Source: a virus. Taken from it: a stretch of DNA of 28,867 nt. The notes below the pieces were generated by a model that was given only the letters and a program-made list of their open reading frames with translations, did not search any database and was not told the origin of the DNA. Within the stretch, counting starts at the first letter, position 1. The number at the start of each line of letters is the position of its first letter. Made by a program: the position numbers and the translations under genes. The stretch spans positions 1 through 28,867 of IMG/VR virus record IMGVR_UViG_3300021963_000509; one strand, 5' to 3'. This document shows positions 70 through 26,304 of the stretch, piece by piece.

Positions 70-534
70 CTAGGCCGCTCCCCTCAGGTCGTTGTACGCC
101 TTCACGATCGGCTCGGCCTCAGCTAGGAATTGCTCCTTCAGCGCCTTATCCTGGGCAATAAATTTTGCGCCTCTGGACGCAAGCCACTGCCTTGCTTTCA
201 TAATAGGGAACAGGAAGTGCTTGGGTTCGCTTGGCTCGCTCATGGTGATTGGGTCGGGCAAGATTCCGATCCGCAGATATGTCTGACGCATAAGGCTTGG
301 ATCTGCATCGCCACTACTCAGTCGCTTCTGAGTGGCTGCGACTTTCTCATATCGTTTGCCAACCTCCTCGGTAATCCCAGCCTCCTCACATAGAGCCAGC
401 ACGTCCTTACCTTCAGTGCGTGCCACGGCAATGATCTCGCCTGCATCCGATGCCAGCGCAATCGTCCTGCCTACCAGCTCGATCGCCTTGTCGCGCGTTT
501 CGTTTAGTTTGTTTATTACAGATAGTAGTTTCAT
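70..534 (-). CDS. Hypothetical helical early protein
   Basis: A 154-residue, mostly alpha-helical, charged soluble protein that I do not recognise. The N-terminal half (about residues 1-70) is a run of predicted helices rich in Ala, Glu and Lys, vaguely like phage DUF3102-type proteins. The middle holds a short Pro-rich linker (around residues 92-105), followed by a second helical segment. There is no signal peptide or membrane segment. The start codon overlaps the stop of the upstream HTH gene (ATGA), so the two are probably translated together and this gene may assist that regulator. It is the last complete gene before the left edge. Positions 1-69 hold no supported gene, only a weak GGCCT/AGGCC stem near 62-75. 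Confidence 0.6.
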   Translation of the reverse strand: MKLLSVINKLNETRDKAIELVGRTIALASDAGEIIAVARTEGKDVLALCEEAGITEEVGKRYEKVAATQKRLSSGDADPSLMRQTYLRIGILPDPITMSEPSEPKHFLFPIMKARQWLASRGAKFIAQDKALKEQFLAEAEPIVKAYNDLRGAA

Positions 535-1004
535 TTCTTAATGCCTTTCTTTAGTGCGGCCATGTTGAATTTAGGTGCTTCACGCCGCCGCTTTGCGTGA
601 ACACGGTATGCCCGTTTGCGGTAGGATTCGCGGGCCTTCTCGCTCTTCTGCGATCGTGCTCGGATACCTAGCCGGTCATAGACTTCTGTGACCTTCTTAC
701 TGATCGCCTGCTTAGTGATGCCGTAACGCTTGGCCACGGCCGTCATTGATTCAGGCGAACGGTTAAGAGATATGTTCAATACCGCATGCCCCAGCGTGTC
801 CGTTCGGTTAGCCATAGCCGGGTGATCGGCAGACTTATCCATAAGGTGTTCTATCACTTTTGTGATAGTCGCAACCGTTGAGGTGGTGACCGTAATCTTT
901 AAGTCATCGCATGACTCAAAGACCAAGTCTTGCAGGCTGTCCATCATGCTGGCTGGATGTGGAATAACCGCCGGGATTCGTTCGATTGCTTCCTGATCTA
1001 TCAT
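531..1004 (-). CDS. Helix-turn-helix DNA-binding protein
   Basis: A 157-residue protein with a helix-turn-helix at about residues 83-113 (pattern SMTAVAKRYGITKQAISKKV), of the kind seen in sigma-70 region 4 and phage regulators. A strongly basic tail (about 114-141, many Arg and Lys) probably contacts DNA. No catalytic domain is visible. The ATG has an upstream GCGAGG ribosome site. The gene lies immediately downstream of the iteron-like repeat cluster at 1032-1151, so it may bind those sites as an autoregulator, origin-binding protein or late-gene regulator. A small-terminase role is possible, because such proteins also carry HTH domains and terminase genes are expected just beyond the left edge. 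DNA binding is well supported; the exact role is not. Confidence 0.7.
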   Translation of the reverse strand: MIDQEAIERIPAVIPHPASMMDSLQDLVFESCDDLKITVTTSTVATITKVIEHLMDKSADHPAMANRTDTLGHAVLNISLNRSPESMTAVAKRYGITKQAISKKVTEVYDRLGIRARSQKSEKARESYRKRAYRVHAKRRREAPKFNMAALKKGIKK

Positions 1005-3771: not shown

Positions 3772-4385
3772 AGCGCAGGCTCCTGGCTAAACAGCTTTTT
3801 TAGATAGGTTTCTGGATAGGCTTTTATGGCCCTATCTAATATGCACTGGAAAAACGACGGATCATTAGGAAGCTTACAAAGGATTGACTCGGATAGTTTT
3901 TCTAAATCCCAAAAGAATTCTAACGCCCTTGCGCTTGCATCGATCAAAAGCCTTTCTCGTTGTGCGTCCTGCCTATACAACTCGTAATTTTGCAGCAAAG
4001 AATTAAAGATATTTTCCTTTGTTTTTGCTGTTTCTTCATGGTTGAACTTCTCTTTCTTTATGTAAATGTTTGCCGGATTGTGCTCTTCAAGACGCTTGTA
4101 AATTATGCATCCGTCTGGATTGACGAGCGCAAAAATATCGGCCTCATCTTTGTTGTATGTTTTGTCGCCCCTCTTGCTTGTTCTAAAGGCAAAAGATGAT
4201 TTTGTTTTTAACTGATGCGTGCTTTTAACCTGAATCCGCAAAACCTTGCCGTTTTTTTCTGCTAAAATATCGTAAGGAAGTCCGTCGCCTGCTTTTGATA
4301 CATTTAGACCAAATCTAGTTAGATCTATTTGAACCAACATTTCTGCGGTTGCCCCTGCTTTCCAGTATTGCTTGGCTTCGCTCAC
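3768..4385 (-). CDS. PD-(D/E)XK nuclease-like protein
   Basis: A 205-residue protein whose first 110 residues match the PD-(D/E)XK nuclease fold: an N-terminal helix with Glu15, Asp39 in GLPYDIL, and the second metal motif IQVKST with Gln52 and Lys54. It is like the group I intron endonuclease/Holliday resolvase-type PDDEXK_11 family. The Q-x-K variant is common in that group. The C-terminal half (about 120-205) is helical and not recognised. Likely substrates are branched or foreign DNA. It may resolve replication intermediates. Both ends overlap neighbours by 4 bases. It looks more AT-rich than the surrounding genes, which may mean separate acquisition. Confidence 0.65.
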   Translation of the reverse strand: MSEAKQYWKAGATAEMLVQIDLTRFGLNVSKAGDGLPYDILAEKNGKVLRIQVKSTHQLKTKSSFAFRTSKRGDKTYNKDEADIFALVNPDGCIIYKRLEEHNPANIYIKKEKFNHEETAKTKENIFNSLLQNYELYRQDAQRERLLIDASARALEFFWDLEKLSESILCKLPNDPSFFQCILDRAIKAYPETYLKKLFSQEPAL

Positions 4386-4663
4386 AGCACCGCCTTTGGC
4401 AGCGGCCCCGCCAGTTTGTAGTGGTACTTGGTGGCGTCGTATTCCAGCGGATAGCCAAAGAAGTTACGCAGCAGATCAATGTCCCGCTGGATGGTTTTAT
4501 AACTGCATTCCAGTTTCACACCTAACCTAGCACAGCTCGGCAGCGTCAGATCCCGGCGCAGCATGCCAGCGATCACACCCAAGCGGCGGAACGTCGGCCG
4601 TGTGTCGCCGAGGCCAGCGGCTCTATTGCGTTTAGATGCAAACGTGGCAGCTTTTGTGCTCAC
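4382..4663 (-). CDS. Small winged-helix (HTH_11-like) protein
   Basis: A 93-residue basic protein. Residues about 25-90 resemble the winged helix-turn-helix at the start of WYL/YafY-type regulators: a recognition helix CSYKTIQRDIDLLR, then a wing with YPLEYDATKYHYKL. The WYL effector domain is absent, so this is a stand-alone DNA-binding domain. It lies between the secreted 3D-domain gene and the nuclease, overlapping both by 4 bases. It is probably an early transcription regulator or a DNA-binding partner of the nuclease. The fold is fairly clear; the target is unknown. Confidence 0.6.
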   Translation of the reverse strand: MSTKAATFASKRNRAAGLGDTRPTFRRLGVIAGMLRRDLTLPSCARLGVKLECSYKTIQRDIDLLRNFFGYPLEYDATKYHYKLAGPLPKAVL

Positions 4664-7947: not shown

Positions 7948-8201
7948 TTGCTGGCCTCGTGTTGCTGTGCCCACATACGGAACACGGCGGGGTTAGGGTG
8001 ATAAATAAACGCTTCGGCGGTCAAATCGTACCCGCCGCGCGAATTTAAATTAAGTTGCTGGTAGTGCGCCCTTTTAGGCTCAGTAATTACCGCCGTGTTA
8101 CCGTTTCGGCGTAAGTCGTTGTAGTGATAAGACTCGGACGGGGTGGGATTTGAACCCACGGTTCTATCTCCTTCTTTGTTTTGATTGATTATGCTTTGCA
8201 T
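7944..8201 (-). CDS. Hypothetical protein whose N-terminus reads through the att site
   Basis: An open frame of 85 codons. Residues about 26-85 (YHYNDLRRNGNTAV ... FRMWAQQHEASK) look like real protein, with a possible small beta structure. Residues 13-24 (RTVGSNPTPSES) are simply the translation of the tRNA-like att sequence, a well-known false-protein signature. No good ribosome site precedes the ATG at 8201, and there is no internal ATG before residue 75. The true start is therefore uncertain. The gene may use a non-ATG start after the att core, or recombination may change its 5' end on integration. Function unknown. Confidence 0.4.
   Translation of the reverse strand: MQSIINQNKEGDRTVGSNPTPSESYHYNDLRRNGNTAVITEPKRAHYQQLNLNSRGGYDLTAEAFIYHPNPAVFRMWAQQHEASK
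8135..8159 (-). other. tRNA 3'-end-like attachment core (candidate attP)
   Basis: Read on the minus strand this is the T arm and 3' acceptor strand of a tRNA. A 5-bp T stem GTGGG/CCCAC encloses the invariant loop TTCAAAT, and it is followed by acceptor bases CCCGTCC and discriminator G. No D arm, anticodon or 5' acceptor strand accompanies it, so it is not a full tRNA gene. It lies about 90 bp before the integrase start. Tyrosine integrases commonly use tRNA 3' ends as attB and carry the same sequence as attP. No second copy is visible in the window. Confidence 0.8.
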
Positions 8202-8236
8202 GGTTGCTGTGTTTTGTTGCGTTAAACTGAGTAAAT

Positions 8237-8250
8237 GTTACCTTTGTAAC
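8237..8250 (+). promoter_or_regulatory. Inverted repeat immediately before the integrase start
   Basis: GTTAC and GTAAC flank a 4-base CTTT spacer and end one base before the integrase ATG. No AGGAGG-like site is present there. The repeat could be an operator or a small RNA stem that limits integrase translation. The short length makes this tentative. Confidence 0.35.
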
Positions 8251-8251
8251 T

Positions 8252-9349
8252 ATGGCCTATTCCTACATTAAGAAAGGCAATCCGTGGTTCTACATTCGTT
8301 TCAAAGATCCCACCGGCAAGTGGCGCACGAAAAGCACCCGCTACCGAATCGACAATACGCTGCATCGCGCCAAGGCAACGGCCGAGGCCGCCAGAATTGG
8401 AGTGAACGAAAAGCGAACGGACAACGGCCACGACTGGGTTGATGATTTGATCGAGAATCACCCCGTTTCCCCTCTGACAAAAGTGTATTACAGGAATTGC
8501 TGGCGTCATCTTGCTCGTTTTATTAGTGAGAAAAAAATAACTCTGCAAGCGTTTTCCGCATCCGATTGTGAAATTTATTTGAAGTGGCGTCAGAGCCTCC
8601 CACGTACTTCTGGCGGCAAGGCGGGCAGGAACCAAGCCTGCCAAGATCTGAAGATTCTTAAATGGATTCACCGCCAAGGCCGACTGCTTGGAAAGATGGA
8701 TTCTGTCGCGCTTCTGGATTACCGAATTAAAAGGGGGCAAATCAACCGCGTTAAACCTGTCTTTTCGGACAATGAAATTAAAATTACCCGGAAAGCCTTG
8801 GCCGTGGAAGGCGTGCCCGAATGGATGCGAATTAGCTTCGAGATCGCCCTGGCTACTGGGTGCAGATTGCGAGAGACGCAGATCCCGCTTGATTGCGTGG
8901 ACTTGAAAAACCGCGTGCTGACTTTCCCGACCCCTAAGGGTGGCGCTGGCAAATCGTTTAGTATCCCCATCCCGGCCGCTATCGAACCCATGCTGGCCAA
9001 GATGAAGGCCGAGGGCCGCGAGGTCACTTGTATCGTGCCCCGCACGCGAGCCTCGCTTTGCTGGCGTCGCCTGCTGGATATTTGCGGGCTTAAACGTCAC
9101 TGCTTCCATTCCCTTCGGGTAACCCGAGTGACGAGACTGCGGCTTTCAGGCTGTTCTCAATCTGTCGCCATGAGACTCGTGAATCACTCTTCGACGTTAG
9201 TTCACGAGCTTTACCAGCGGCACTGCGTGGACGACTTGCGCGATGCAGTGAACTTAGGCCAGTCTGCATTAGCCTCCACCGATCAAAATCCGACGGGATT
9301 ACCTTACCCGCGAGCAGCGGGAATCCCGGCAGTGCCTTCATTTGCTTGA
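8252..9349 (+). CDS. int: Tyrosine recombinase (phage integrase)
   Basis: A 365-residue tyrosine recombinase that should integrate and excise the phage at a host tRNA gene. The N-terminus (about 1-40) is an arm-binding-type segment (KKGNPWFYIRFKDPTGKWRT). Residues about 60-145 are the core-binding SAM-like domain. The catalytic domain shows Arg205 in ATGCRLRE, Lys229 in TPKGG, His286-x-x-Arg289 in HSLR, His312 in LVNHSS, and the nucleophile Tyr321 in ELYQRH. All expected residues are present. It is the only large plus-strand gene. The last 40 or so residues extend beyond the domain and are encoded opposite an excisionase-like gene, so the C-terminal tail is poorly constrained. The att-like tRNA end lies just upstream. 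Confidence 0.93.
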   Translation: MAYSYIKKGNPWFYIRFKDPTGKWRTKSTRYRIDNTLHRAKATAEAARIGVNEKRTDNGHDWVDDLIENHPVSPLTKVYYRNCWRHLARFISEKKITLQAFSASDCEIYLKWRQSLPRTSGGKAGRNQACQDLKILKWIHRQGRLLGKMDSVALLDYRIKRGQINRVKPVFSDNEIKITRKALAVEGVPEWMRISFEIALATGCRLRETQIPLDCVDLKNRVLTFPTPKGGAGKSFSIPIPAAIEPMLAKMKAEGREVTCIVPRTRASLCWRRLLDICGLKRHCFHSLRVTRVTRLRLSGCSQSVAMRLVNHSSTLVHELYQRHCVDDLRDAVNLGQSALASTDQNPTGLPYPRAAGIPAVPSFA

Positions 9350-9455
9350 TCCGCACGTAGCCGAGACCGTAGGCCGCACCTAATTGGCGAAGGGAAAGAG
9401 CTCGATCCTGCTTGCGCAGATTCATGGCAGTATCGTTGAGACGCCCCGAGCTCAT
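9090..9455 (-). CDS. Excisionase-like HTH protein, antisense to integrase 3' end
   Basis: A 121-residue frame whose residues about 18-70 match small MerR/Xis-type excisionases: a helix-turn-helix LSLRQLGAAYGLGYVRIKQM, then the wing and strand pattern FPLLAGKVIPSDFDRW. Such proteins bend attachment-site DNA and direct excision. An alternative start is the ATG at residue 11. Neither start has a clear ribosome site. Residues after about 70 run antisense to the catalytic part of the integrase gene for 260 bp. That stretch may be genuinely coding or merely open. The HTH part itself is convincing. It lies downstream of a ribbon-helix-helix gene on the same strand, so both may share one transcript. 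Confidence 0.6.
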   Translation of the reverse strand: MSSGRLNDTAMNLRKQDRALSLRQLGAAYGLGYVRIKQMKALPGFPLLAGKVIPSDFDRWRLMQTGLSSLHRASRPRSAAGKARELTSKSDSRVSWRQIENSLKAAVSSLGLPEGNGSSDV

Positions 9456-9461
9456 GAAGAT

Positions 9462-9623
9462 CTAGCTTTGCTCTCCCGATGCCTTTGCAAGCAGTTGAGT
9501 GATGAGCTGGGAAAGCGAAATACGACGGGCAGCGGCTAATTTTTGAGATGCTTTTTTCACAGCAACGGGCAGAACGATGTTGGTCTTTTCCGCTTTTAAA
9601 CCGCTGAGTGGACGACGAGGCAT
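9462..9623 (-). CDS. Ribbon-helix-helix DNA-binding protein (minus member of divergent pair)
   Basis: A 53-residue protein with a ribbon-helix-helix (Arc/MetJ-like) pattern: a beta strand KTNIVLPVAV, helix A (KKASQKLAAARR), and the turn and helix B ISLSQLITQLLAKAS. Such proteins bind operators as dimers of strands. Its sequence is clearly related to the protein at 9729-9872 (shared KTN, P, V-K, LA, SLS, IT and LL positions with one gap). It is read away from it across a 105-bp gap that carries GCGTAT/ATACGC repeats. Only a weak AAAGG ribosome site precedes the ATG. It is likely a regulator of lysogeny and of the excisionase gene immediately downstream. Confidence 0.7.
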   Translation of the reverse strand: MPRRPLSGLKAEKTNIVLPVAVKKASQKLAAARRISLSQLITQLLAKASGEQS

Positions 9624-9693
9624 ACGCCTTTGCTACGCACACACGGCGTATTAGCAACACATTTCTTTTTGGCATTAACTTTTCTTTTTAAAC

Positions 9694-9721
9694 TTGAATG
9701 CGTATTTATTGCGCATACAAT
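9694..9721 (+). promoter_or_regulatory. Sigma-70-type promoter with embedded operator
   Basis: TTGAAT (9694-9699) and TACAAT (9716-9721) are separated by 16 bp and look like -35 and -10 boxes. Transcription should begin near 9728, at the ATG of the plus-strand gene (9729), which has no ribosome site. The mRNA would be nearly leaderless. An inverted repeat ATGCG/CGCAT (9698-9702 and 9712-9716) fills the spacer. GCGTAT or its inverse recurs at 9622, 9646 and 9700. A protein bound there would block RNA polymerase. Confidence 0.55.
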
Positions 9722-9728
9722 CCTCCCT

Positions 9729-9872
9729 ATGAAAAAGGCGAAAACGAACCTTACGATCGACCCAAAAGTTAAGCGCAATGGTGAGCGTCTTGCCAAAAAG
9801 AACGGATTATCCCTTTCGGCATATATCACCACCCTGCTCGTCAAAGAGCTGGCCAAAGAAAATAGACGCTAG
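9729..9872 (+). CDS. Ribbon-helix-helix DNA-binding protein (plus member of divergent pair)
   Basis: A 47-residue protein: strand KTNLTIDPKV, helix A KRNGERLAKKNG, turn and helix B LSLSAYITTLLVKELAKE. This is a ribbon-helix-helix fold of minimal size. A longer in-frame start at 9630 is rejected, because its extra 33 residues are hydrophobic nonsense covering the promoter region. The ATG lies 7 bases after a good -10 box and lacks a Shine-Dalgarno sequence, implying a leaderless message. It is paralogous to the divergent protein at 9462-9623. Together they resemble a two-repressor genetic switch. The gene ends tail-to-tail (4-bp overlap) with the winged-helix gene on the minus strand. Confidence 0.7.
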   Translation: MKKAKTNLTIDPKVKRNGERLAKKNGLSLSAYITTLLVKELAKENRR

Positions 9873-10168
9873 TTTTTGGGCGATTTGCCTGGAATCAGGC
9901 GGTAGTGGGGTATTTTCCTGCAATGGCCTAAAAACTTCTTTCCCTTTGAATCAACGTGAGGCAATCGAACCACATAACTTTTTTTCTCAGCTCTGCCGTC
10001 TTTAACGAGATGCGCCAAAAGTTTATTGGCATAATTTGCCGACTTACCCCAAAGCTCGGCGATCTGGTTTTTAGTTAGCCAGCCATCGGGTACTACCTCC
10101 TGCCGGTACCCAGCGACATACTCAGTCAGGACGGTTGCCCAATCCGACTTTACACCGGGTATCGCCAT
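9869..10168 (-). CDS. Winged-helix DNA-binding protein
   Basis: A 99-residue protein with a winged-helix-like core: WLTKNQIAELWGKSANYANKLLAHLVKDGRAEKK, then a wing with SYVVRLPHVD and a basic end. The longer in-frame start at 10204 is rejected because an excellent AGGAGG sits 4 bases before the ATG at 10168. It overlaps the end of the phosphoesterase gene by 19 bases. It is probably a transcriptional regulator or DNA-binding accessory. As the last gene of the late operon before the lysogeny region, it could link late expression to the switch. Confidence 0.6.
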   Translation of the reverse strand: MAIPGVKSDWATVLTEYVAGYRQEVVPDGWLTKNQIAELWGKSANYANKLLAHLVKDGRAEKKSYVVRLPHVDSKGKKFLGHCRKIPHYRLIPGKSPKN

Positions 10169-10893
10169 ACGCCTCCTATGGGTGAAAGCACGTTCACCGT
10201 GCATCCCTGCCCGCCTTCTACGTACTCACCCCAGGCAACGCCGTGCTGCCATCTAGTAACGGATCGCTGGCGCCGGGCGTAGTGCATGCTGGGAATATCT
10301 GCTAGGCAGCCGATCGACCAGCCCACGGGTGCGCCGATGCTACGGCCTGCGATCCTATCCACCCGGTGCAAGTGGCCCATGACGACAGGCTTTCTGACCA
10401 TCTCTACGTGGTCGCGCACGGCTGATTCTGAAAACATAAACCCGTGGCCGAATGCCGTCCCGCCCAGATCACGCCAGCCTTTCTCAATATCATAAGGCAC
10501 ATACTGAGCCTTTAGATCCTTGCACATGTTATATATCTCGGACTTTGCAGACGTACAGCAATGGGCCACAATCGCGCTAGGCGAGTATTGTAAGGCGGTT
10601 AGGCGGTGCTCATGGTTTCCCTCAAATACGATCTGTGGAGCCAGTTCTCGTAGAAAATTTAGCCCTGCGTCAAAGTCCTCACGTATGCTGGTCGATCGCT
10701 CTGGGCTGTCAGGATCTTTGCGGGCTGAACCCATTAACCCAGATAAATCCAGAAAATCACCCAAGTGCAAAATGGTGTCCGGCTGCCACCGCCTTTTCAT
10801 CTCGAGCGCACTTTTGCAGGCAGCCGCATTCGCCAGGTGACCGTGTGAGCAGCTGACCGCCAGCCACTTTTTCCATTTCCGAATTACCTTCAC
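10150..10893 (-). CDS. Calcineurin-like metallophosphoesterase
   Basis: A 247-residue protein of the calcineurin-like phosphoesterase superfamily. It keeps the GDFLD motif (Asp46, Asp49), GNHE (Asn93, His94, Glu95), FGHG (His150) and GHLHR (His174, His176). The first motif, normally D-x-H, reads C15-S-H17, so the first metal-binding Asp is replaced by Cys. The enzyme may bind its metals differently or prefer another metal. Substrates for phage members include phosphodiesters, nucleotides or nucleic acid ends. It begins with GTG in a GTGA overlap with the MazG-like gene, suggesting joint nucleotide metabolism. Confidence 0.75.
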   Translation of the reverse strand: MKVIRKWKKWLAVSCSHGHLANAAACKSALEMKRRWQPDTILHLGDFLDLSGLMGSARKDPDSPERSTSIREDFDAGLNFLRELAPQIVFEGNHEHRLTALQYSPSAIVAHCCTSAKSEIYNMCKDLKAQYVPYDIEKGWRDLGGTAFGHGFMFSESAVRDHVEMVRKPVVMGHLHRVDRIAGRSIGAPVGWSIGCLADIPSMHYARRQRSVTRWQHGVAWGEYVEGGQGCTVNVLSPIGGVWRYPV

Positions 10894-23325: not shown

Positions 23326-23940
23326 TCACCAGATCGGGCGAATGGACGGATCAAATGTGACCATGGCTTTACATCCAGCGCCACCATGCGGAAACGTTGG
23401 GGTGTAGTGGTATCGCTTGACGCAATCAGGCCAAGTCATCGTGGCCTTTCCCCTGGCTGCCTTTGGCGTATCCACGGATCGATCGTTATCCTCGACAATA
23501 AAGGTGCAGGGTAGATCTGCCCCAGCCACGTAGTTTACGGCCTCATAAAAATGGCCCTCATCCTCAGCTCCATCGCCCAAGAAGCACCAAACTTTTGCCG
23601 GGCTTCCCTGCTCTTTTAATGTGTGCGCCACTCCGGCCGCTATCCCGCAAGTGCCAGCCAACACGCTTGACGTGTAGAAATTTAGTTTACGGTCAAAGAC
23701 AAACATGGAACGACCTTCTTTAATCATTTGCTCAAGCACGTCAGGATCTCCGCCAGAGAGCAGATAGTGATAGTGGGATCTGTGGCTTGAGAAGATCCAA
23801 TCGCCTGGCTTGATGTCTTTGAATATCTCGATGAGCTGATCTTCATTCCCCCCGCATAGGTGAATCAGATATGGCAGCTTGCCCTGCTCAAATAGCGCCT
23901 TAATGCGCAGTTCAAAATCAATCAGATCCTGCTTGTTCAT
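23326..23940 (-). CDS. ThDP-dependent enzyme, E1-alpha-like (PP-domain) subunit
   Basis: A 204-residue protein matching the thiamine-diphosphate-binding half of 2-oxo-acid dehydrogenase E1-alpha and transketolase-like enzymes. It has FSSHRSHYHYLLSGGD (His53, His56), a Gly-rich GTCGIAAGVAHTLK helix, and the ThDP and metal motif GDG at 122-124 followed by 27 residues and Asn152 (EDNDRSV). The canonical family has about 320-370 residues, so it is a minimal form. Its partner is the E1-beta-like gene at 25025-25543, across the radical SAM gene. The product is unknown. Both halves together could bind ThDP and transfer an acyl or ketol group to a sugar. Confidence 0.8.
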   Translation of the reverse strand: MNKQDLIDFELRIKALFEQGKLPYLIHLCGGNEDQLIEIFKDIKPGDWIFSSHRSHYHYLLSGGDPDVLEQMIKEGRSMFVFDRKLNFYTSSVLAGTCGIAAGVAHTLKEQGSPAKVWCFLGDGAEDEGHFYEAVNYVAGADLPCTFIVEDNDRSVDTPKAARGKATMTWPDCVKRYHYTPTFPHGGAGCKAMVTFDPSIRPIW

Positions 23941-25031
23941 ACAAAGGCGTCGTGACTATCGGTGGCCAGCTTTTCAAACAGTGCCACCTTGGCGTGATTT
24001 GCGCATTCATGCAGGCAACTAACGCCAGGGTTAAAGTTTTTGTGCCATGCTCTCGCCTCTTCTCCGAACCATGCCTGGCTAAATGATTGATCCTTCATGG
24101 AGGCGATCCGGCCGTGATTGCTGTATGCGGTATTGTGGCATGCGTAGATATTGAGATCCGCACCTACCACGCAAACGGCCTGAGCGTAAAGACAGCGATG
24201 GAATGGCCGAACGGGCGACTTGCTTGGACTATCCAGATCGTAGGTCGTGTTAATGGTAAAATCTGAATCGCAAAAAGATTGGCACTCGGCCAGTTGTTCC
24301 CTCACCCTGGTTGCAATCGTGTTGTGATATTCTTTAAAGTTCTGCACGTACACGGGCGAAAAGCGGACGTTACTCACGCCTGAATCCTTGAGCTGCTTAG
24401 CAAACGGAACTAGTCCCTCGTAATTGTAGCGGGTAATAATAAAGTTAATCCCAAGATCGCAGCTCTCTGTTTTCGTGTTAGAAAAGTTTTTTATATTCTG
24501 CATCACGGAATCAAACGATCTGTCTGGAACGTTACGGCTCGACGCCATCTGCTCTGCGCTTGTGTAGTCCATCGAAATCCTCACCCACTTTGCTTTGCCC
24601 AATACTTCCGCCCTTTCCCCCGCAAGCAGTTGGCCGTTGGTAATAATGGATAGATCTAATCCAGACGAGACTGTCTTAGTCATAATCTCGACAATGTCTT
24701 TATGCAGCAAAGGCTCTCCGCCACCGCTAAAGGTGACGGCTTTAGTTCCGATGTTTGAAAGATCCTCTATTAGTTCTAGCGCCTTATCTCGTGGCATGAC
24801 GTCCCGCTCGTTCATGCTGGTGTGCATGCCAGCCTGTAGGTGCAAGTCAGGCCGATCCTTTGGCCGAGTTGTGCCGTCAGAATAGACGCAGAAACGGCAG
24901 GCGTGGTTACAGATATTCGTCGGCTTAATCCGCACGTAGATGGGTGCGGTGATAATATCGTCGCGAAAGCTGGCGATCTTATCCGGGAACGAAAAGATTT
25001 TAAGGTCGCTGTACTTGTTCTGCTTCACCAC
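23937..25031 (-). CDS. Radical SAM enzyme with SPASM-like C-terminus
   Basis: A 364-residue radical S-adenosylmethionine enzyme. The iron-sulfur motif is CNHACRFC (Cys41, 45, 48). FSGGGEPLLH (about 101-110) is the SAM-binding glycine-rich motif. The C-terminal part (about 275-345) has a SPASM-like set of cysteines (RCLYAQAVCVVGADLNIYACHN and SCLHECANH) that would hold auxiliary clusters. SPASM enzymes modify peptides, sugars or other substrates by radical chemistry. The gene sits between the two ThDP subunits, so it may prepare or modify the same compound. It begins with GTG (two adjacent GTGs) after an AAAGGA site. Function within the phage is unknown. Confidence 0.82.
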   Translation of the reverse strand: MVKQNKYSDLKIFSFPDKIASFRDDIITAPIYVRIKPTNICNHACRFCVYSDGTTRPKDRPDLHLQAGMHTSMNERDVMPRDKALELIEDLSNIGTKAVTFSGGGEPLLHKDIVEIMTKTVSSGLDLSIITNGQLLAGERAEVLGKAKWVRISMDYTSAEQMASSRNVPDRSFDSVMQNIKNFSNTKTESCDLGINFIITRYNYEGLVPFAKQLKDSGVSNVRFSPVYVQNFKEYHNTIATRVREQLAECQSFCDSDFTINTTYDLDSPSKSPVRPFHRCLYAQAVCVVGADLNIYACHNTAYSNHGRIASMKDQSFSQAWFGEEARAWHKNFNPGVSCLHECANHAKVALFEKLATDSHDAFV

Positions 25032-25543
25032 TCATCCTTTCGCTCAACCAGCATCGTGGATGTCCCAGCGCTCAGTCTGTGCAGTGCGTTTTGATATTCG
25101 CTCACTACGCTTTCCTTCTTTAGTTCTACGATTGGGAAATCGATCATTTTCCTAAGAGCTTCGGTAAAGTCCTGCGTATGGGTTGGCCCCGTGTAGAGCG
25201 GCTTGTTTTTGTTTCCTATAACTACCCGCAAGATGGCGGCAGGCTTGAATTGATTGCAGCTAATGTGCTGAGCTGCGCCCAGGTGATTCACAATGGCGTC
25301 CAGTGCATTGAGAATAAAATCCATCCGCTCAATAAAGACGACGGGTTTAAGCCCGGCCAAACTCAGGCCCGTGGCTAGTCCTACCATCAGATTTTCAGCG
25401 ACAGGCGTTTCAATCAGTTGTGAATCCGCAACATTATTGAGCGTGCCTGCTGCCCGGCCGCCTATCTTTACCCCGTAGCCTATAAACCTGACGGCCGGAT
25501 CGGCCGCCAATAAATCCATTGCCTGAGTCAGCTCCTTCTTCAC
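25025..25543 (-). CDS. ThDP-dependent enzyme, E1-beta-like (PYR-domain) subunit
   Basis: A 172-residue protein equal to the pyrimidine-binding domain of E1-beta/transketolase. IETPVAENLMVGLATGLSLAG carries the conserved catalytic Glu50, then PVVFIERMDFILNALDAIVNHLG and a GPTHTQDFTEALR loop. The usual C-terminal transketolase domain (another 150 residues) is missing. With the alpha-like subunit it would supply one complete ThDP site at a subunit interface. The GTG start overlaps the TGA of the GT9-like gene. The compact two-piece enzyme is unusual for a phage. Confidence 0.78.
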   Translation of the reverse strand: MKKELTQAMDLLAADPAVRFIGYGVKIGGRAAGTLNNVADSQLIETPVAENLMVGLATGLSLAGLKPVVFIERMDFILNALDAIVNHLGAAQHISCNQFKPAAILRVVIGNKNKPLYTGPTHTQDFTEALRKMIDFPIVELKKESVVSEYQNALHRLSAGTSTMLVERKDEW

Positions 25544-26304
25544 AGCAACCCTTCCTCTTCAAGAATATGGAGGGCGTGAAATGCGCTCCTAGCCATCTGA
25601 CCGCGTTCGGTAAATATGACTGTCTCGGTATCTGCACACAGCAAATGGAAGGCATTTTTGTTGTGAACGTTTAGGCACGGCCAACTCGGCCCGGTGGATG
25701 TACCGATGACGGCTTTTGCCTTTGCAGCCGTCGCCCCTATCCAAGTCACATTCTTGTTATCAAATGCCGGGCATAATCCAGTATCGACTGTGCTGATTAC
25801 CCGATGGCCCTTGCTAACTAGTTTAGATACTAGGTTGCGAAAGTCGTCGGGGTTAAAGTTTGTGAATTGACCAGACAGCCCTGGCGAATTTATCACAACA
25901 ATGTCGAAATCTGGTGCCATCGGAATGAAAGAATCTAAAGCCGGATAGTCAAACAGGAGGTCATCGACTTTCCGAATTGGATTCTTTACGCACATCCTGC
26001 TGGCCAGTTCCTCAAACCAGCATAGATGAAATTTGGCGAAGTTTAATTTGTCGGGATGACGCTCCCAATATCCGCCTGCATTACGCCAAGAATCAATACT
26101 ATCGGCTGGCGCTTGATCGATGGGCCTAATGTGTAGGCGTAAAGATATGTCGCTACGCAAGGCATCAATCTCCTCAAACTTGCACAGCTCTGGATTATGA
26201 TAGTGAGTAATCTCGAGATCTGGATTTTGCAGGCATAGCCGACGTAGAAAGTTTAACTGCACCAAGTTGTCGCCCAAACGCAGTGCGTTGTGGGTGTGAA
26301 TCAC
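25540..26304 (-). CDS. GT9-like (heptosyltransferase-fold) protein
   Basis: A 254-residue protein resembling the ADP-heptose-type GT9 glycosyltransferases. It begins with NALRLGDNLVQLNFLRRL, the usual N-terminal motif, and has a Rossmann-like centre (FDIVVINSPGLSGQF). The late motif KAVIGTSTGPSWPCLNV resembles the GT9 'GPxxH' loop. Family members have 300-350 residues, so this one is short. It could transfer a sugar made by the rest of the cassette, or act as a glycan-binding relative without activity. GTG start, GTGA junction with the double glycosyltransferase. Confidence 0.65.
   Translation of the reverse strand: MIHTHNALRLGDNLVQLNFLRRLCLQNPDLEITHYHNPELCKFEEIDALRSDISLRLHIRPIDQAPADSIDSWRNAGGYWERHPDKLNFAKFHLCWFEELASRMCVKNPIRKVDDLLFDYPALDSFIPMAPDFDIVVINSPGLSGQFTNFNPDDFRNLVSKLVSKGHRVISTVDTGLCPAFDNKNVTWIGATAAKAKAVIGTSTGPSWPCLNVHNKNAFHLLCADTETVIFTERGQMARSAFHALHILEEEGLL

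Follow-up and report, generated by a model that had tools for sequence, protein, structure and literature searches.

Where temperate phages have been seen in metagenomes only, an integrase gene is often present and no repressor can be recognized; the question raised by the locus described here is how such a phage might choose between lysis and lysogeny. The window is the whole 28,867-nt viral record IMGVR_UViG_3300021963_000509. An earlier note, made from its sequence alone, had singled out two very small divergent genes, RHH1 and RHH2, as a possible switch made of ribbon-helix-helix (RHH) proteins. The analysis led to the view, held with a probability of about 0.7, that the locus is the immunity region, or lysis/lysogeny switch, of a temperate tailed phage and that it is built from two paralogous RHH proteins. 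The RHH pair probably stands in for the usual CI/Cro repressors in a family of uncultured temperate phages. This reading is based on the divergent arrangement of the pair, its conservation, the clusters of half-sites, the exchange of the cassette between phages, the gene order, the presence of a cargo gene after RHH2 in some relatives and the fact that no CI-type repressor was recognized. The features of the locus are listed in Table 1.

Table 1. Genes and predicted regulatory sites, by position in the window.
Feature	Position	Strand	Description
HTH-like ORF	531-1004		
HTH-like ORF	4382-4663		HTH_11-like protein
Tyrosine integrase	8252-9349	+	365 aa; PF00589, E 2e-6 (Pfam); PHROG 1, E 4e-31
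Excisionase-like ORF	9090-9455	-	121 aa; begins 6 nt past the RHH1 stop codon
RHH1	9462-9623	-	53 aa; proposed Cro-like, lytic-side regulator
Left operator (predicted)	9623-9650	.	half-sites TACGC 9623-9627, TACGC 9634-9638, GCGTA 9646-9650
Divergent promoter/operator region between RHH1 and RHH2	9624-9728	.	105 bp
Possible RHH1 promoter, weak	9650-9678	-	-10 GCTAAT 9650-9655; -35 TTAATG 9673-9678 (by eye)
Predicted RHH2 promoter	9694-9721	+	TTGAAT 9694-9699, 16-nt spacer, TACAAT 9716-9721; sigma-70-like
Right operator (predicted)	9698-9716	.	GCGTA 9700-9704 and TGCGC 9710-9714, inverted, centers 10 bp apart
RHH2	9729-9872	+	47 aa; proposed CI-like maintenance repressor
HTH-like ORF	9869-10204		convergent with RHH2, stop codons overlapping

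RHH1 and RHH2 are real paralogous genes, and their products are ribbon-helix-helix-like. The two proteins are identical at 16 of 39 positions (41%; BLASTP E 9e-8, in a single comparison), and their profiles matched over 43 columns with a probability of 96.9% and an E-value of 1.7e-10. The description of a paralogous RHH-like pair diverging from a 105-bp spacer (9624-9728) was borne out. Both genes are under purifying selection, with a pN/pS of 0.21 for RHH1 over 49 distinct DNA versions and of 0.13 for RHH2 over 51. RHH1 matched Pfam RHH_5 with an E-value of 0.002, under the family cut-off, and a CopG-family chain in the PDB, also with an E-value of 0.002. RHH2 matched PHROG 582, an Arc-like repressor (E 1.5e-5), and Pfam DUF6364 (E 0.001) and CcdA (E 0.01), both under cut-off; the best PDB sequence match of its profile was CopG (E 0.026). 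The AlphaFold models have helices at residues 20-32 and 37-48 in RHH1 (pLDDT 72) and at residues 12-24 and 29-46 in RHH2 (pLDDT 86), and in both proteins the N-terminal strand of the RHH fold would form only in the dimer. The top Foldseek matches of both models were P22 Arc chains, with weak E-values, as is expected for proteins of only ~50 residues. The DNA contacts of Arc are taken here, as general knowledge, to be Q9, N11 and R13; in an alignment made by eye the corresponding residues are K, N and V in RHH1 and K, N and T in RHH2. In a phylogenetic tree, the RHH1 and RHH2 proteins fell into separate clades with support of 97/97, indicating one duplication older than the spread of the family, after which both copies were retained.

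RHH1 is the first gene of a predicted operon with the excisionase-like ORF, and both share their direction with the early genes. The pair had been placed beside excisionase and integrase genes. The integrase was confirmed by its matches to PF00589 and PHROG 1, but the excisionase-like ORF gave no family match in Pfam or PHROG searches and owes its name to position and appearance only. In 55 of 56 loci, an ORF of 121-122 aa begins within a few nucleotides of the end of RHH1. The final 260 nt of this ORF in the window (9090-9349) are antisense to the 3' end region of the integrase gene, where the catalytic tyrosine is encoded, and almost all relatives keep the frame open across this overlap. On the other side of the pair, the ORF at 9869-10204 is conserved in place and highly variable in sequence (39-90% identity, and about 31% in distant phages).

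The spacer contains five half-sites in two clusters, one for each promoter/start region. In the left operator, the half-site centers are 11 and 12 bp apart and the cluster ends on the RHH1 start codon. The right operator reads ATGCGTA-N5-TACGCAT in most relatives; its second half-site (9710-9714), TACGC in most relatives, is the degenerate TGCGC in the window. The center of this palindrome (9705-9709) is either TTTAT or the reverse complement, ATAAA, among close relatives, as if inverted.

Repeated GCGTAT/ATACGC half-sites had been claimed in the earlier note. Over the whole window the GCGTAT hexamer is near chance (17 occurrences vs. 11.9 expected), and therefore the evidence rests on local clustering and conservation, in which respects the claim stood. 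The GCGTA/TACGC pentamers occur 3.7 times per spacer in 46 distinct relatives compared with 0.21 times per 105 bp of the window. When the 46 distinct spacers were aligned, the half-site columns were the best conserved of the spacer, with 1.90 bits vs. 1.33 in the remaining columns, a value that was not reached when the half-site pattern was shifted circularly to 104 other positions. Repeated ends, exact in the records G001 and G002 (51 and 116 bp, respectively) and near-exact in G010, make these three records look like complete circular assemblies. G001 and G002 have exact half-site pairs in this spacer and nowhere else, and both have the exact right-operator pair GCGTA-N5-TACGC; outside the spacer there is one exact pair in the window and there are a few in G010.

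The right operator sits between the -35 and -10 elements of the predicted RHH2 promoter. A promoter with 9 of 12 matches was present in 78% of the 46 relatives vs. 1% of mononucleotide-shuffled spacers. The RHH2 ATG lies 7 nt beyond the -10 in the window and 6-8 nt beyond it across relatives, a spacing which suggests that the RHH2 mRNA is probably leaderless. By eye, the distant phage L218 shows a similar layout, TTGACA-17-TAAAAT-6 nt-ATG. On the opposite side, the three left half-sites span the stretch from the possible RHH1 -10 to the RHH1 start codon; a better form of the RHH1 promoter, TTAACA-18-GACAAT, was found by scan only in some relatives, such as L052. The RHH1 promoter is thus poorly defined, which counts against the switch reading.

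The divergent pair recurs in other phages. RHH1 as a query matched 55 loci in IMG/VR, and all 55 have a divergent RHH2 at a distance of 103-107 bp. An RHH2 profile picked up 71 loci, including L124-L127 at only 45-50% identity; those inspected that had enough upstream DNA also have RHH1, except L120. This last was rejected as a pair-bearing locus because only the later part of RHH2 matches and the pair is absent there. A broader RHH1 profile reached phages with a 40-55% identical RHH1 (L146, L210, L214 and L216-L219), and these seven distant phages keep a divergent RHH2 at about 97-112 bp. The RHH1 and spacer of L215 are the same as those of L216, but this sequence was too short to be counted. 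Another candidate, L220, has a divergent RHH-like ORF, but it was set aside as none of the genes around it is shared with the window.

An integrase was present in all eight records searched for one, and in the distant phages tested it adjoins the pair. Furthermore, the six distant loci that were checked for context share the local gene order of the window, namely phosphoesterase, HTH ORF, RHH2, RHH1, integrase and early genes, with single genes absent or swapped in some. Scans of a genome-contig collection with RHH1 and integrase profiles found no relative and no prophage copy, though with few short patterns they are weak evidence for absence, and INPHARED gave no match to RHH2 or the integrase. 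The temperate lifestyle is therefore deduced from the integrase gene. A separate observation concerns the structural gene region of the window, which includes metabolic-looking genes at 23326-26304 whose functions were judged by eye: thiamine-diphosphate-enzyme-like pieces (23326-23940 and 25025-25543), a radical-SAM-like protein (23937-25031) and a further gene (25540-26304). These genes had no match in G001, G002 or G010.

Six phages (L124-L127, L138 and L139) have a different pair, with an RHH2 that is 45-50% identical. The DNA on both sides of the L124-L127 cassette is 78-92% identical to that of the main-clade phages, which are relatives of the window. The break in identity, from about 85% to 40-55%, lies between the excisionase-like ORF and RHH1 (9410-9470), and in the exchanged phages the low values persist to the end of RHH2. 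Relative to the window, the integrases of G010 (the record of L126) and G001 are 92% and 89% identical, respectively, compared with about 45% and 91% for RHH2. Moreover, in the integrase tree L139 fell with L053 and the window, apart from the other exchanged phages, and its RHH proteins grouped with those of L124. Such swapping of the unit is what would be expected of an immunity cassette, and it is therefore probably the lysis/lysogeny switch. The half-sites of both clusters are shifted towards GCGCA in the exchanged cassette, whose two RHH proteins each have Tyr at the position that aligns with Arc R13. In L116 and L118, RHH1 and the left half-sites are changed, and RHH2 and the right operator are changed less. 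These comparisons of sequence are suggestive of covariation between the RHH proteins and their half-sites.

The statement that no CI-like repressor is visible was upheld by wider searches. HTH_3 gave no match above the cut-off in 20 records and S24 peptidase gave none in 12. Among the 49 ORFs of the complete G010, 14 Pfam families matched at 1e-3, and they included neither a CI-type or other repressor family nor an antirepressor family; its PHROG matches were listed as the best 25 of 56 families.

The possibility was considered that the pair is a secondary module that controls only excision or a superinfection function, and that the main repressor is another protein, for example the HTH_11-like product of 4382-4663. 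The immI region of P22 is a model for such an arrangement: its paralogous RHH repressors, Arc (53 aa) and Mnt (82 aa), which are about 40% alike (PMC7549136), stand beside the main repressor c2 (PMC7549136, PMC2629481). HTH-like ORFs that might encode a main repressor do exist in the window, at 531-1004, 4382-4663 and 9869-10204. Additionally, RHH half-sites were looked for at the integrase/early-gene promoter region (8202-8251) and none was found there, this region carrying instead a conserved element of its own, AATGTTACC. As a lysogeny repressor RHH2 would therefore have to reach the early genes through the RHH1 transcript, antisense through the integrase gene, or else another regulator exists; this counts against the switch reading. 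However, the ORFs at 531-1004 and 4382-4663 lie within lytic-direction operons and outside the exchanged stretch, the unit that is exchanged is the pair itself, and the Pfam matches of G010 argue against both a CI-type repressor and an antirepressor. A merely secondary role for the pair is accordingly regarded as unlikely. The element upstream of the integrase gene can be followed over 8190-8251 as TTGC.TTAAA...AATGTTACC...ATG in the main and exchanged clades, whatever their RHH type; possibly it is the integrase/early promoter, the site of another regulator or attP.

If the pair is the immunity switch, RHH dimers would occupy the GCGTA/TACGC half-sites at a spacing of roughly one helical turn, in the manner of Arc or CopG dimers. 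RHH2 would silence the prophage by blocking the RHH1-excisionase-like transcript and would also tune its own promoter. RHH1, made together with the excisionase-like protein, would shut off RHH2 as lytic growth begins, and the DNA specificities of the two proteins would overlap. Binding, roles, competition and the route of induction are the steps of this mechanism that are inferred.

The roles might also be reversed, such that RHH1 and the excisionase-like gene are expressed in the prophage and RHH2 is a Cro-like lytic regulator. Weakness is typical of maintenance promoters, lambda PRM among them, whereas the RHH2 promoter is the one nearer to consensus, as a lytic role for RHH2 would predict. 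This arrangement is nevertheless improbable, given that RHH1, the excisionase-like ORF and the early genes are all read in one direction and that RHH2, in exchanged and distant phages, heads an operon with cargo resembling secreted or membrane proteins. By eye, the gene after RHH2 encodes a protein of ~160 aa whose start resembles a signal peptide in the exchanged phages and L218, and a small membrane-like protein in L214 and L219. The place after RHH2 is the usual one for prophage-expressed genes, and the ~160-aa cargo gene is possibly a superinfection exclusion or lysogenic conversion gene. The cargo genes at 3191-3670 in L124-L127 and at 2584-3069 in L218 have a VGGGG motif common to the exchanged and the distant phage. 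The window is without such cargo, the ORF after RHH2 being convergent.

An antitoxin-like or plasmid-style pair of autoregulators with no role in lysogeny would account for the weak matches to CcdA, HicB-like antitoxin profiles and CopG, but it is highly improbable, as the neighboring proteins tested had no match to a toxin family in Pfam or PHROG and immunity accounts better for the constant position beside the integrase and for the exchange of the cassette.

The proposed immunity switch resembles P22 immI in having two paralogous small RHH-like proteins, probably of the same fold, in one locus with short pseudo-symmetric predicted operators and, if the proposed roles are correct, in having one repressor for lytic growth and one for maintenance. 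The P22 pair, however, controls the antirepressor gene ant, whereas here RHH1 precedes the excisionase-like gene and no ant was found; likewise, P22 has c2 as its main CI-type repressor, whereas here none was recognized and the pair adjoins the integrase. SSV1 F55, from an archaeal virus, is an RHH protein of 6.3 kDa which keeps up lysogeny and acts as a repressor of the early genes and of its own promoter (PMC5569661). It differs in being a single protein with tandem ATAGATAG sites at archaeal promoters and no opposing paralogue described (PMC5569661). Lambda shares with this locus the divergent regulators, one type of half-site at both promoters (here seen in the DNA sequence only), cassette exchange, which in lambda is heteroimmune, and cargo after the maintenance repressor (rex after CI, and in some relatives a gene after the proposed repressor RHH2); CI and Cro also have opposite roles, as is proposed for RHH2 and RHH1. 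In contrast, CI and Cro are HTH proteins, and SOS induction works through a self-cleaving domain of CI. Here there was no HTH_3 or S24 match, and induction must therefore work otherwise than in lambda. CopG, which acts in the copy control of plasmid pLS1, is a 45-aa RHH repressor and in this is like RHH2, but it is a lone plasmid autoregulator.

The earlier note had regarded a lysogeny switch of two related RHH proteins competing for one operator region as novel. A switch is backed by the comparative evidence, with competition as a proposed step, but its novelty was overstated because P22 Arc/Mnt and SSV1 F55 precede it. No paired RHH phage switch was found in open papers, subscription papers being outside the scope of the search. 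The apparent novelty lies in an RHH pair that occurs by itself, with no CI-type repressor recognizable, across a broad group of tailed phages. The odds are judged to be about even for the wider proposal that this group has the pair as its main and sole lysogeny switch, with RHH paralogues, possibly as heterodimers, replacing CI and Cro and with induction proceeding without a self-cleaving repressor.

A paired-RHH switch of about 100 aa in total would explain one group of temperate phages that appear to have no repressor. It would also offer a minimal two-component switch, with operators that co-vary, for the study of how specificity evolves after duplication. Furthermore, a divergent RHH pair beside an integrase would serve as a marker for immunity regions in metagenomes.
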